DNA from: Muribaculaceae bacterium
Lineage (GTDB): Bacteria; Bacteroidota; Bacteroidia; Bacteroidales; Muribaculaceae
NCBI GenBank assembly: GCA_022509085.1
Contig: JAFLTW010000004.1
Span: 62,001 to 126,000 of the forward strand
DNA length: 64,000 bases
Direction: 5' to 3'
The notes below the pieces were generated by a model. The model searched no databases. It was not told the DNA's origin and worked only from the letters and a program-made list of their open reading frames with translations. A program made the translations under genes and the position numbers. Of the stretch, positions 32,008 through 36,440 are shown piece by piece (positions within the stretch are counted from its first letter, which is position 1; every line of letters begins with the position of its first letter).

Positions 32008-32080
32008 CACGGGAAGAGAGGCTCGAACTCCCGACACCTGGTTTTGGAGACCAGTGCTCTACCGACTGAGCTATTCCCGT
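32008..32080 (-). tRNA. tRNA-Trp (anticodon CCA)
   Basis: A 73-nt cloverleaf on the minus strand. The acceptor ACGGGAA/TTCCCGT pairs fully, with discriminator G. The anticodon arm CTGGT-CTCCAAA-ACCAG gives anticodon CCA, and the T arm contains GTTCGAG. CCA is not encoded. It lies between tuf and secE. Confidence 0.97.
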
Positions 32081-33417: not shown

Positions 33418-33492
<75 letters not shown>

Positions 33493-33506
33493 TTATATTT
33501 TTCTTG

Positions 33507-33579
33507 AGCGATGAACGAGGTTCGAACTCGCGACCCTTAGCTTGGAAGGCTAATGCTCTACCAACTGAGCTACCATCGC
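33507..33579 (-). tRNA. tRNA-Gly (anticodon TCC)
   Basis: A 73-nt minus-strand cloverleaf. The acceptor GCGATGG/TCATCGC includes one G-T pair. The anticodon arm TTAGC-CTTCCAA-GCTAA gives TCC, and the T loop is TTCGAAC. No encoded CCA. Confidence 0.96.
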
Positions 33580-33591
33580 ATTAGGAAGGAG

Positions 33592-33674
33592 TGGGCGCGG
33601 ATGGATTCGAACCACCGAAGGTATCAACCAGCAGATTTACAGTCTGCCCCATTTGGCCACTCTGGAACACGCCC
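33592..33674 (-). tRNA. tRNA-Tyr (anticodon GTA)
   Basis: An 83-nt minus-strand cloverleaf with the long variable arm of bacterial tRNA-Tyr. The acceptor GGGCGTG/CGCGCCC has one T-G pair. The anticodon arm GCAGA-CTGTAAA-TCTGC gives GTA. Confidence 0.97.
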
Positions 33675-33728
33675 GGAATTATTTGTTGCAATATTTTCAA
33701 TCTTGTGCTGACGCTTCAGCAGATTTTG

Positions 33729-33802
33729 AGCCTCTTGTCGGATTCGAACCAACGACCCCGAGATTACAAATCACGTGCTCTGGCCAACTGAGCTAAAGAG
33801 GC
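33729..33802 (-). tRNA. tRNA-Thr (anticodon TGT)
   Basis: A 74-nt minus-strand cloverleaf and first gene of the cluster. The acceptor GCCTCTT/AAGAGGC is perfect. The anticodon loop TTTGTAA gives TGT. The anticodon stem CGTGA/TCTCG has a central T-T opposition that I recall being usual for this tRNA in the order. Confidence 0.94.
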
Positions 33803-33932: not shown

Positions 33933-35783
33933 TCACTCAACGGTGACCGATTTTGCCAGGTTGCGAGGCATATCCACGTTCTTCCCCTTATTGATGGCTA
34001 TATAATAGGATATAAGCTGGAGGGGTATGCTCGTGATGATCGGCGAGAGACATTCAGACACCTTAGGCACCTCGAGCACATGGTCGGCAATCTCGCTGAT
34101 AAGGTCGTCGCCTTCGGTTACGACGGCGATGATGCTGCCGCCGCGGGCCTTTACCTGTTGCACATTGTTTACAATCTTGTCGTAAAGGTGGTCTTTGGGT
34201 GCGATGATCACCGACGGCATCTCCTCGTCGATCAGGGCGATGGGCCCATGCTTCATCTCGGCGGCCGGGTAGCCCTCGGCATGGACGTAAGAGATTTCCT
34301 TAAGTTTAAGGGCACCTTCGAGAGCCACGGGATATGAATAACCGCGACCGAGATAAAGGAAGTTGCGGGCATACGTATAGATCAGCGACATCTGCTTCAC
34401 CTTCTCGTTGAGCGATTTCAGGATTCCCTCCACCTTGTCGGGGATTGTGAGAATCTCCTTACCGATTTCCTCAATCTGATGTGGTGTCATTGTGCCTCTT
34501 AGCTGGGCGATGCTTAGGGCGAGCATAGTGAGCACCATCACCTGGCCTGTAAAGGCCTTTGTGGATGCTACCCCGATTTCAGGACCCACATGGATATACG
34601 TACCCGAGTCGGTTTCGCGGGGAATAGAGCTACCCACCACGTTGCTCACACCGTAGACGAACGCACCCATACCCTTAGCGATCTTGATGGCGGCCAGGGT
34701 GTCGGCCGTCTCGCCGCTCTGGGAGATTGCGATAACGATATCCGTATCATAGATTACAGGTTTGCTGTAGCGGAACTCGCTGGCATATTCCACGGCCACG
34801 GGGATATGGCACATATCCTGGAGCAGGTATTTGCCGATGAGGGCGGCATGCCATGAGGTGCCGCATGCCACGATGACAAACCTACGGGCCTTGAGGAACT
34901 GCTCCTTATTATCGAGGACACCGTTGAGCATCACCTGCTTGCCGCCGTCGACCACCCTGCCGCGTATGCAGTCGAGGAGGGTCTTCGGCTGCTCGAAGAT
35001 CTCCTTGAGCATGAAGTGGGGATATCCGCCCTTCTCGAGCTGGGAGATGGAAAGCTGGAGGGTCTTGACGTCAATCTTCGCCTTCTCGTTTTCGAGAGTG
35101 ACGAGCTGGAGGGGTTTGCCGCGTTGGAGTATGGCGATTTCCTCATCCTTAAGGTAGACCACATCCTTGGTGTATTCCACAATGGGTGTGGCATCGGAAG
35201 CGAGGAGGAACTCACCGTCGCCGATACCGATTACGAGCGGAGAACTCTTACGGGCGGCGATAATCGTGTCGGGTTTGTCTTTTTCCACTACAGCGATGGC
35301 GTAGGCGCCTACCACTTCCTTGAGGGCTTCGCGCACGGCATCGAGCAGCGAGCAGTTGTTGTGTACCTTAATATATTCAATGAGCTGCACGAGCACCTCC
35401 GTATCGGTTTCCGACTGGAAAGTGCACCCTTGCTGTATGAGGGCATCCTTGAGGATCTGGTAGTTTTCGATCGTTCCGTTATGCACGAGGGCCAGATTAC
35501 CGTCTTCGCTGTAATGGGGATGGGCATTATGGTCGGAGGGTTCGCCGTGGGTAGCCCAGCGGGTATGCGCGATACCTACCACTGCGGAATCCGTATTCTT
35601 GTCTTCGCAATAGGATTCAAGGTTGGCCACCTTTCCTTTGGCTTTAAACACGCTTAGCTTACCTTTATCGTCGACGAGGGCGATACCGGCGCTGTCGTAG
35701 CCGCGGTATTCCAGGCGGTGGAGGCCTTTGATCAAAACGTCGTATACATTACCGGAACCGATGTATCCTACAATTCCACACAT
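33933..35783 (-). CDS. glmS: glutamine-fructose-6-phosphate aminotransferase (isomerizing)
   Basis: A 616-residue enzyme making glucosamine-6-phosphate for peptidoglycan and lipid A. The N-terminal glutaminase uses Cys2 (MCGIVGYIG), with RWATHGEPSDHNAHPH and the LVHNGTIENY motif. Two SIS isomerase domains follow (IVACGTSWHAAL, then SQSGETADTLAAI and LGRGYSYPVALEGALKLKEISYVHAE). The end NLAKSVTVE is the conserved catalytic tail. No glmS ribozyme is visible. A noncoding RNA gene with its own terminator lies upstream, and a TAACTTTG -7 box occurs between that terminator and the ATG. Confidence 0.99.
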   Translation of the reverse strand: MCGIVGYIGSGNVYDVLIKGLHRLEYRGYDSAGIALVDDKGKLSVFKAKGKVANLESYCEDKNTDSAVVGIAHTRWATHGEPSDHNAHPHYSEDGNLALVHNGTIENYQILKDALIQQGCTFQSETDTEVLVQLIEYIKVHNNCSLLDAVREALKEVVGAYAIAVVEKDKPDTIIAARKSSPLVIGIGDGEFLLASDATPIVEYTKDVVYLKDEEIAILQRGKPLQLVTLENEKAKIDVKTLQLSISQLEKGGYPHFMLKEIFEQPKTLLDCIRGRVVDGGKQVMLNGVLDNKEQFLKARRFVIVACGTSWHAALIGKYLLQDMCHIPVAVEYASEFRYSKPVIYDTDIVIAISQSGETADTLAAIKIAKGMGAFVYGVSNVVGSSIPRETDSGTYIHVGPEIGVASTKAFTGQVMVLTMLALSIAQLRGTMTPHQIEEIGKEILTIPDKVEGILKSLNEKVKQMSLIYTYARNFLYLGRGYSYPVALEGALKLKEISYVHAEGYPAAEMKHGPIALIDEEMPSVIIAPKDHLYDKIVNNVQQVKARGGSIIAVVTEGDDLISEIADHVLEVPKVSECLSPIITSIPLQLISYYIAINKGKNVDMPRNLAKSVTVE

Positions 35784-35826
35784 AATATGTCAGATGAAAA
35801 ATTGTCTAAAATTGAAAAATAATCTG

Positions 35827-35834
35827 CAAAGTTA
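35827..35834 (-). promoter_or_regulatory. -7 box upstream of glmS
   Basis: TAACTTTG on the minus strand lies 44 bases before the glmS ATG and immediately after the T-tract of the upstream RNA terminator. No TTTG is present at the right distance; that position falls inside the terminator stem. Confidence 0.5.
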
Positions 35835-35835
35835 C

Positions 35836-35861
35836 AAAAAAATGGCAAATAACTTGCCATT
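35836..35861 (-). terminator. intrinsic terminator of the noncoding RNA upstream of glmS
   Basis: On the minus strand, AATGGCAA (35861-35854) pairs perfectly with TTGCCATT (35848-35841) over a 5-base loop and runs into seven T. No protein-coding gene precedes it for more than 550 bases, so it terminates the noncoding transcript. Confidence 0.8.
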
Positions 35862-36157
35862 TCGCATGTAAAATATGTTAACGGGATTTTTGTGTCTTCA
35901 TATTGCCGGATATTCGGAGAGGGTTGGGTGTGGGAGTGTTTTCATGGTAGATAAAAGGCAGGTATCTTTGTACTCAATCTCTATAATATAAATCTCAATT
36001 CAGGCTTAACTATCGATAAGGCATAGATTTCTCACGGCATTAGATTTGATGTCAGAGGATAACCTTATCCCTTCCCTCTCCGAATATTCAATCCGGCGTC
36101 GGATTCACGTCAGATTGTAGAAATTAATCTAAAATCTTATCAACGCTCACGCGTTTA
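35836..36157 (-). ncRNA. candidate ~320-nt noncoding RNA
   Basis: The 657-base gap between glmS and the lipoprotein gene at 36441 has no credible protein gene but carries a full transcription unit on the minus strand. A full-consensus promoter lies at 36195-36164 and an intrinsic terminator at 35861-35836. The predicted RNA opens with a small hairpin AACGC-GTGA-GCGTT (36155-36142, GNRA-type loop). Its middle is closed by a long-range helix: 36097-36074 pairs with 35923-35905 over 19 bases, broken by one 5-base bulge, enclosing about 150 bases. An inner GGATA/TATCC hairpin is also visible. I see no RNase P, tmRNA or SRP RNA signatures. The closed-helix shape vaguely resembles 6S RNA, but the class is unknown. 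Confidence 0.7.
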
Positions 36158-36163
36158 TGACGG

Positions 36164-36195
36164 CAAAGGTAATGCAAAAAACCGCAATATCCAAA
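36164..36195 (-). promoter_or_regulatory. consensus promoter of the noncoding RNA
   Basis: TTTG (36195-36192), exactly 20 bases, then TACCTTTG (36171-36164) on the minus strand: a full match to the Bacteroidota consensus. The expected start is near 36157, which is just where a compact hairpin begins. Confidence 0.8.
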
Positions 36196-36343
36196 TAAAA
36201 AATATCTTTTTGCCAAACATACCGGAATGTTAAAATAACAAATCGGGAGAAACGCTATACAACGGCAAGTCAAACCCACTTTAGAATGACAAAATGCAAG
36301 CAAGAGTGAGAAGAATGCTAAAACACCATATGTTATAAAACAT

Positions 36344-36383
36344 ATTTGAGTCCTCAAAGCAGACGTGCCTTGAGGACTCAAAT
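36344..36383 (-). terminator. hairpin terminator after the lipoprotein gene
   Basis: A perfect 14-base-pair stem (36344-36357 with 36370-36383) and 12-base loop starts 58 bases past the stop of the gene at 36441. The following minus-strand sequence is T-rich (ATGTTTTAT), so termination is plausible. Confidence 0.7.
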
Positions 36384-36440
36384 TTATGGTAAATGGTGAT
36401 ATTCTTCAGAAATCCATCACCAGCGATGGGTCGAATCTCA

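Follow-up and report, generated by a model that had tools for sequence, protein, structure and literature searches.

A stand-alone noncoding RNA gene upstream of glmS in Muribaculaceae, a probable multi-site sponge of FopS small RNAs

FopS is a central multicopy small RNA (sRNA) family of gut Bacteroides, which shuts polysaccharide-uptake loci. In the excerpted text of the work on Bacteroides thetaiotaomicron, the 5′ seed of FopS is described as pairing with the start region of susC mRNA and blocking translation, and RbpB as antagonising FopS, with titration named as one possible way (PMC11697453); the same excerpts give GibS (RF04182) a seed, R1, in common with FopS, and the words sponge and decoy do not occur in them (0 occurrences). 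According to excerpts of another paper, GibS is induced by N-acetylglucosamine, and sponges are mentioned there as a general class only (PMC7366714). No description of an sRNA sponge in Bacteroidota was found in the open-access PMC papers searched, and a natural FopS-titrating RNA would add an anti-repressor layer that is so far known there only as the protein RbpB.

The window, i.e. the whole 64-kb stretch of DNA that was analyzed, carries a candidate for such an RNA between glmS and a lipoprotein gene. As a sequence-only reading of this DNA had claimed, protein genes are absent from the gap, at least convincing ones: the single minus-strand frame listed there, an 85-aa TTG frame at 36124-36381, crosses the promoter of the RNA gene. 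The same reading had placed here a complete, independent gene for a noncoding RNA of roughly 320 nt on the minus strand, with a promoter, a hairpin with a GNRA loop at the predicted start and a 19-pair long-range helix with one 5-base bulge, all of which we recovered (Table 1); in the minimum-energy fold, the long-range, or closing, helix consists of 6+13 pairs, with the bulge on the 5′ side. The terminator and its T run also lie where they had been placed, but the fold gives nine pairs rather than the eight reported. A real noncoding RNA gene is present at this locus, and its product is predicted to be structured, with a folding energy of -82.3 compared with a mean of -59.5 (sd 4.75, z -4.81) for dinucleotide shuffles, none of which (0/100) was as low. 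Five genes for tRNAs and one for elongation factor Tu lie on the other side of glmS (33421-33802, 32008-32080); many contigs of relatives end shortly past glmS, perhaps at this cluster.

Table 1. Parts of the RNA gene and its downstream neighbour, in window coordinates
Feature	Position	Strand	Details and basis
Promoter	36164..36195	-	TTTG 36195-36192, 20 bases, TACCTTTG 36171-36164; A/T-rich upstream stretch; read from sequence
5′ hairpin AACGC-GUGA-GCGUU, GUGA (GNRA) loop	about 36141..36155	-	Predicted transcript start; sequence and fold
Closing helix, 5′ arm, with 5-base bulge	36074..36097	-	Minimum-energy fold; shuffle pairing test
Predicted FopS site 1, UCCUCUGACAUCAAAUCUAAUGCCGUGAGAAAUC	36026..36065, core 36059-36026	-	Duplexes with own FopS-a and FopS-b
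Candidate third FopS site, AGUUAAGCCUGAAU	36001..36018	-	Fits FopS-b segment GGUUAACU, absent from FopS-a
Predicted FopS site 2, ACCUGCCUUUUAUCUACCAUGAAAACACU	35935..35963	-	Duplexes with FopS-a and FopS-b (35960-35933 for FopS-b)
Closing helix, 3′ arm	35905..35923	-	Minimum-energy fold; shuffle pairing test
Intrinsic terminator (9-pair stem, T run)	35836..35861	-	Sequence and fold
glmS, downstream neighbour, outside the RNA gene	33933..35783	-	Name from earlier note and protein sequence

The Rfam search proposed in the sequence-only reading was run on the window, and at cut-offs it placed no family at the RNA. With E up to 10 around the RNA, there were sub-threshold matches only, the best of which fell on a perfect long hairpin (36344-36383) behind the lipoprotein gene and outside the RNA; this hairpin, matched below threshold by microRNA families on both strands, is probably the terminator of the lipoprotein gene. 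By eye, the kept repeats of the RNA are not GGA motifs of the CsrB type. A direct DNA search of 61 relatives with the window RNA returned the RNA itself and short chance matches only, and members could not be set apart from shuffles when pairs of RNAs were aligned locally with permissive gaps; such RNAs escape family searches because only antisense seeds and helix pairing are kept.

The suggestion of a 6S-like RNA, which would bind RNA polymerase, agrees with the length of about 320 nt, the long closing helix and the open core, and two compact relatives have TATCTTTG in the core. It is nevertheless barely credible: RF00013 gave no match, and RF01685 matched the window's own genome only off this locus, at E 9.65, both models being weak in this phylum (in a Bacteroides control genome RF00013 gave no match and RF01685 remained below cut-off). 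Moreover, the RNA is laid out as a 5′ hairpin, a closing helix, an open core with repeats and a separate terminator, which differs from one 6S rod, and the core is accounted for by complementarity to FopS.

This complementarity emerged from R2, a 43-position sequence model of the kept core, which is based on 11 compact RNAs including that of the window (alignment A4, 11 rows, with L059, L050, L082, L081 and L079 left out) and was run on 111 genomes of the genus. Besides the RNAs, R2 picked out one 25.5-bit place elsewhere in nearly every one of the 111 genomes, and the opposite strand of this place is a 68-nt gene with its own promoter and terminator. Scanned with Rfam, such places yielded FopS (RF04319) in 7/7 loci, at 63-68 bits against a cut-off of 56, with GibS (RF04182) below cut-off only. 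Since the opposite-strand places of R2 are FopS genes, the glmS-linked RNA has in its core the antisense of the 5′ portion of FopS; a first reading of the core as a protein-binding repeat was dropped once R2 had led to FopS. The complementarity was out of the earlier reader's sight because the FopS genes sit elsewhere in the genome. By RF04319, the window genome has two of them over the cut-off of 56 bits, FopS-a (66.2) and FopS-b (74.2), and a third, FopS-c, below it (46.1).

For two FopS paralogues, complementarity between the window RNA and sRNAs of the same genome exceeds chance. FopS-a pairs with site 1 at -38.4 kcal/mol when a 34-nt seed is used and at -42.1 with 42 nt, and with site 2 at -26.5 kcal/mol, the corresponding values for FopS-b being -30.6 and -23.2 kcal/mol. 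Shuffled RNAs gave a mean best duplex of -18.0 (sd 2.4) with FopS-a and -16.7 (sd 2.1) with FopS-b; for both paralogues, the best and the second-best duplex were each reached by 0/200 RNA shuffles, and 0/100 shuffled FopS seeds attained the observed duplexes. FopS-c showed no significant site on the window RNA, with 20/200 shuffles as good. The stretch AGUUAAGCCUGAAU, which is a candidate site only, pairs with FopS-b at -19.9 kcal/mol over 36018-35975. The sites can be opened at a modest cost (6.0 and 4.1 kcal/mol), as can the seeds of FopS-a (7.6) and FopS-b (1.4), so that by a rough sum net pairing is favourable. When 788 stretches of 325 nt, taken from both strands of the 64-kb DNA, were ranked, the window RNA came first, the next value being -30.1; other low-energy stretches (at about 46990 and 63352, minus strand) were rejected, as they lie in or beside protein frames unlike susC.

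Every antisense site necessarily reads FopS-like on the opposite strand, as it would if the locus were a decayed plus-strand cluster of FopS genes with a minus strand that merely looks antisense. We consider this highly improbable. At its cut-off RF04319 matches nothing in the window, nor does it up to E 10 within 35780-36440 on either strand, and the promoter, terminator and closing helix are all on the minus strand. Departures from perfect antisense favour changes that keep G-U pairs, 84 vs 16 (with 14 vs 5 positions open to such changes), alongside 146 transversions; because the sequences are related, this supports the minus-strand reading weakly.

Relatives were surveyed through glmS, which was recovered in 92 of the 111 genus genomes, and the upstream DNA of all 92 was taken (94 loci, two genomes having two each). 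An RNA gene of this kind was counted upstream of glmS in 24/92 genomes, while the remaining 68 have glmS without a counted copy. In the pairing test, the FopS seeds of the window genome were applied to every locus, with the other strand as a control: 16/94 loci scored below every one of the 94 controls (lowest control -29.2), and at -25 kcal/mol 28/94 loci passed on the RNA strand vs 5/94 controls, so a few of the weaker members may be due to chance. Four loci that reach a site at -25 (L101, L051, L092 and L103) were left out of the 24, two others (L021 and L089) were members by motif at first and then failed the energy limit, and a viral contig (L074) was dismissed as a chance match. The leave-one-out motif score of the window was 28.4 on the RNA strand and 5.9 on the other, the highest other-strand score over the 94 loci being 20.5; L044, at 23.3, is probably a chance match in coding sequence. 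A script found a TAnnTTTG-type promoter box before the RNA in 22/24 loci, and in the other two the box lies beyond the stretch given, as was seen for one of them, L056. Relatives of the NYN protein or the lipoprotein, the upstream neighbours in the window, are on the same strand in 19/24 RNA loci; in the 70 loci without the RNA, the NYN relative is present in 31 and the lipoprotein relative in 24.

FopS genes over the cut-off were found in all 22 RNA-bearing genomes searched (22 of the 24 counted members), and the shorter FopS-a kind (64-68 bits) in 19 of these 22; it was not seen in the nearest relative (G105), in G083 or in G089, three genomes with assembly completeness of 75-88%. In G084 and G094, FopS-type genes form tandem pairs (L187 and L190) about 250-280 bases apart.

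The nearest relative, with a glmS 90% identical to that of the window, has a compact RNA (L075) with its parts in the same order, but with a GAGA loop in the 5′ hairpin and a closing helix of quite different sequence around the same core words. Between the two RNAs, the FopS sites keep 57/81 bases, compared with 116/244 for the rest and 14/43 for the helix arms, and AGUUAAGCCUGAAU keeps 14/18. In the core, GAGATTGAGTA (about 36000-35980) is also kept, outside any strong FopS site. The latter would fit an RNA with another job, such as protein binding, in which FopS pairing switches the RNA and not the reverse, and the same FopS duplexes would be expected in that case. We regard this as rather unlikely, since the RNA lacks a protein-coding frame that FopS could repress, little is kept outside the sites and the helix, and several sites exceed the need of one switch: in 22/24 members, at least one seed has multiple sites at or below -22, the other two members (L019 and L033) showing one.

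Compensatory changes are seen in the closing helix where it can be aligned. In ten relatives with an alignable inner helix (six distinct rows, the window excluded), 96.7% of cells pair and 6/10 pairs have changed on both sides (0/500 shuffles), and sliding the partner strand destroys the signal; the count of pair types is ordinary (167/500 shuffles). When flank pairing in each of the 24 members was compared with that in 200 shuffles, 11 members, including the window, scored 0 and 14 scored 5 or fewer, while the 10 failures (more than 5/200) arose partly because flanks were cut mechanically.

Eight genomes have a long, well-kept RNA of about 470-700 nt upstream of glmS; other genomes have compact ones. 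An exact 21-base signature searched in 84,980 species genomes occurs in what we take to be only the same eight. R1, a structure model of the 5′ part of the long RNAs, matched 8/111 genus genomes and had one match (E 0.026) in 295 genomes of the order; it gave none in 31 sources including the window, which it therefore missed. A motif test, in which one of the four motifs had been picked after the likeness was noticed, gave 0/3000 (z 5.2) for the window and, for other compact RNAs, 1 (L015), 84 (L033), 307 (L019), 567 (L011), 623 (L023) and 1341 (L021) of 3000; 4/6 of the latter were not significant and 5/6 were at 84/3000 or more. Only some compact RNAs are thus tied to the long ones by this test.

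The position next to glmS had raised the possibility of glmS control by readthrough. The T run of the RNA terminator adjoins a TAACTTTG box (35842-35826), which probably serves glmS as a promoter element, so that the terminator of the RNA and the promoter of glmS touch; L063 is similar. A cis-acting leader or attenuator could thus operate by readthrough, or by the RNA terminator interfering with the adjoining promoter. Within the gap upstream of glmS, however, there is no Rfam match to the glmS ribozyme or another known glmS leader, and most genus genomes have glmS without the RNA. In G007 (L064), the RNA match (contig positions 4080-4251) and glmS (470-2311), both on the minus strand, are separated by another gene, which by eye resembles a membrane acyltransferase; the RNA is therefore an independent unit. 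In addition, related RNAs occur at other loci in six genomes. Readthrough as a conserved mechanism is not supported by these comparisons, and we find a cis-acting role very unlikely.

The RNAs in these six genus genomes, none of which is among the 24 counted members, form a second group (L182, L183, L184, L185, L188 and L191 in G065, G028, G092, G103, G101 and G100, respectively) that lies away from glmS and has a kept stretch ATCAATATTTGCGTAAA..CTCTATCTTTGAAACTAATACC, with CTCTATCTTTGAAACTAATACC as the core. Their best FopS-a sites lie between -27.1 and -33.9, 4/6 of these RNAs have two sites, and no Rfam match is above E 0.2. A search of 295 order genomes with R3, the model of this group, gave three matches of 20-22 bits but no clear member. 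In 119 genomes of the family, R2 at E 2e-5, a strict limit that misses known members such as G110, found two places, both in the genus; G112 contributed one of the two, which is its FopS locus. With the models used, the RNA family appears only in this genus.

Taken together, the anatomy of the gene, the pairing beyond chance, the kept sites and the covariation of the helix in relatives make it likely that this stand-alone RNA of about 320 nt is a multi-site sponge, or target mimic, of FopS sRNAs. If expressed, it would offer FopS antisense sites, predicted to be kept in an open loop by the closing helix, which FopS would bind in place of susC-type mRNA starts; bound FopS would be held or degraded, and its targets would be derepressed once it is titrated. 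An abundant RNA with several such sites would compete with susC mRNAs for FopS. More tentatively, and short of calling it probable, we propose that these RNAs are genus-specific, fast-evolving, dedicated antagonists of FopS, each with several target mimics, some matched to a paralogue (site 1 to FopS-a, AGUUAAGCCUGAAU to FopS-b), set between helix arms that drift in sequence while their pairing stays. GibS could be bound by the RNA too, since seed R1 is common to GibS and FopS, and a tie to amino sugars may exist through GibS or glmS. If this is true, the RNA would tune repression of polysaccharide-uptake genes, and might do so in coordination with amino-sugar synthesis in those cases in which it adjoins glmS. 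The prediction names sites and paralogues, so that direct mutational tests are possible in cultivable relatives. Judging by the open-access papers searched, the RNA represents a new family, absent from Rfam, and would also be new to this phylum as a sponge.

Comparison with known systems sets the RNA apart in several respects. Like the susC-type targets of FopS, it has an antisense to the FopS seed, including a ACCAUGAAAAC-type stretch that resembles an mRNA start; unlike FopS and susC mRNA, it has several sites, a closing helix and a transcription unit of its own, and it has no protein frame. It would be an RNA counterpart of RbpB: both would counteract FopS, the RNA by base pairing and RbpB as an RRM protein. 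In Proteobacteria, sRNA sponges include SroC, 3′ETS-leuZ and the chbBC trap for ChiX. As these are generally described, the RNA would be alike in pairing with, and titrating, a regulatory sRNA, and would differ in having a gene to itself and in presenting several sites between two helix arms.
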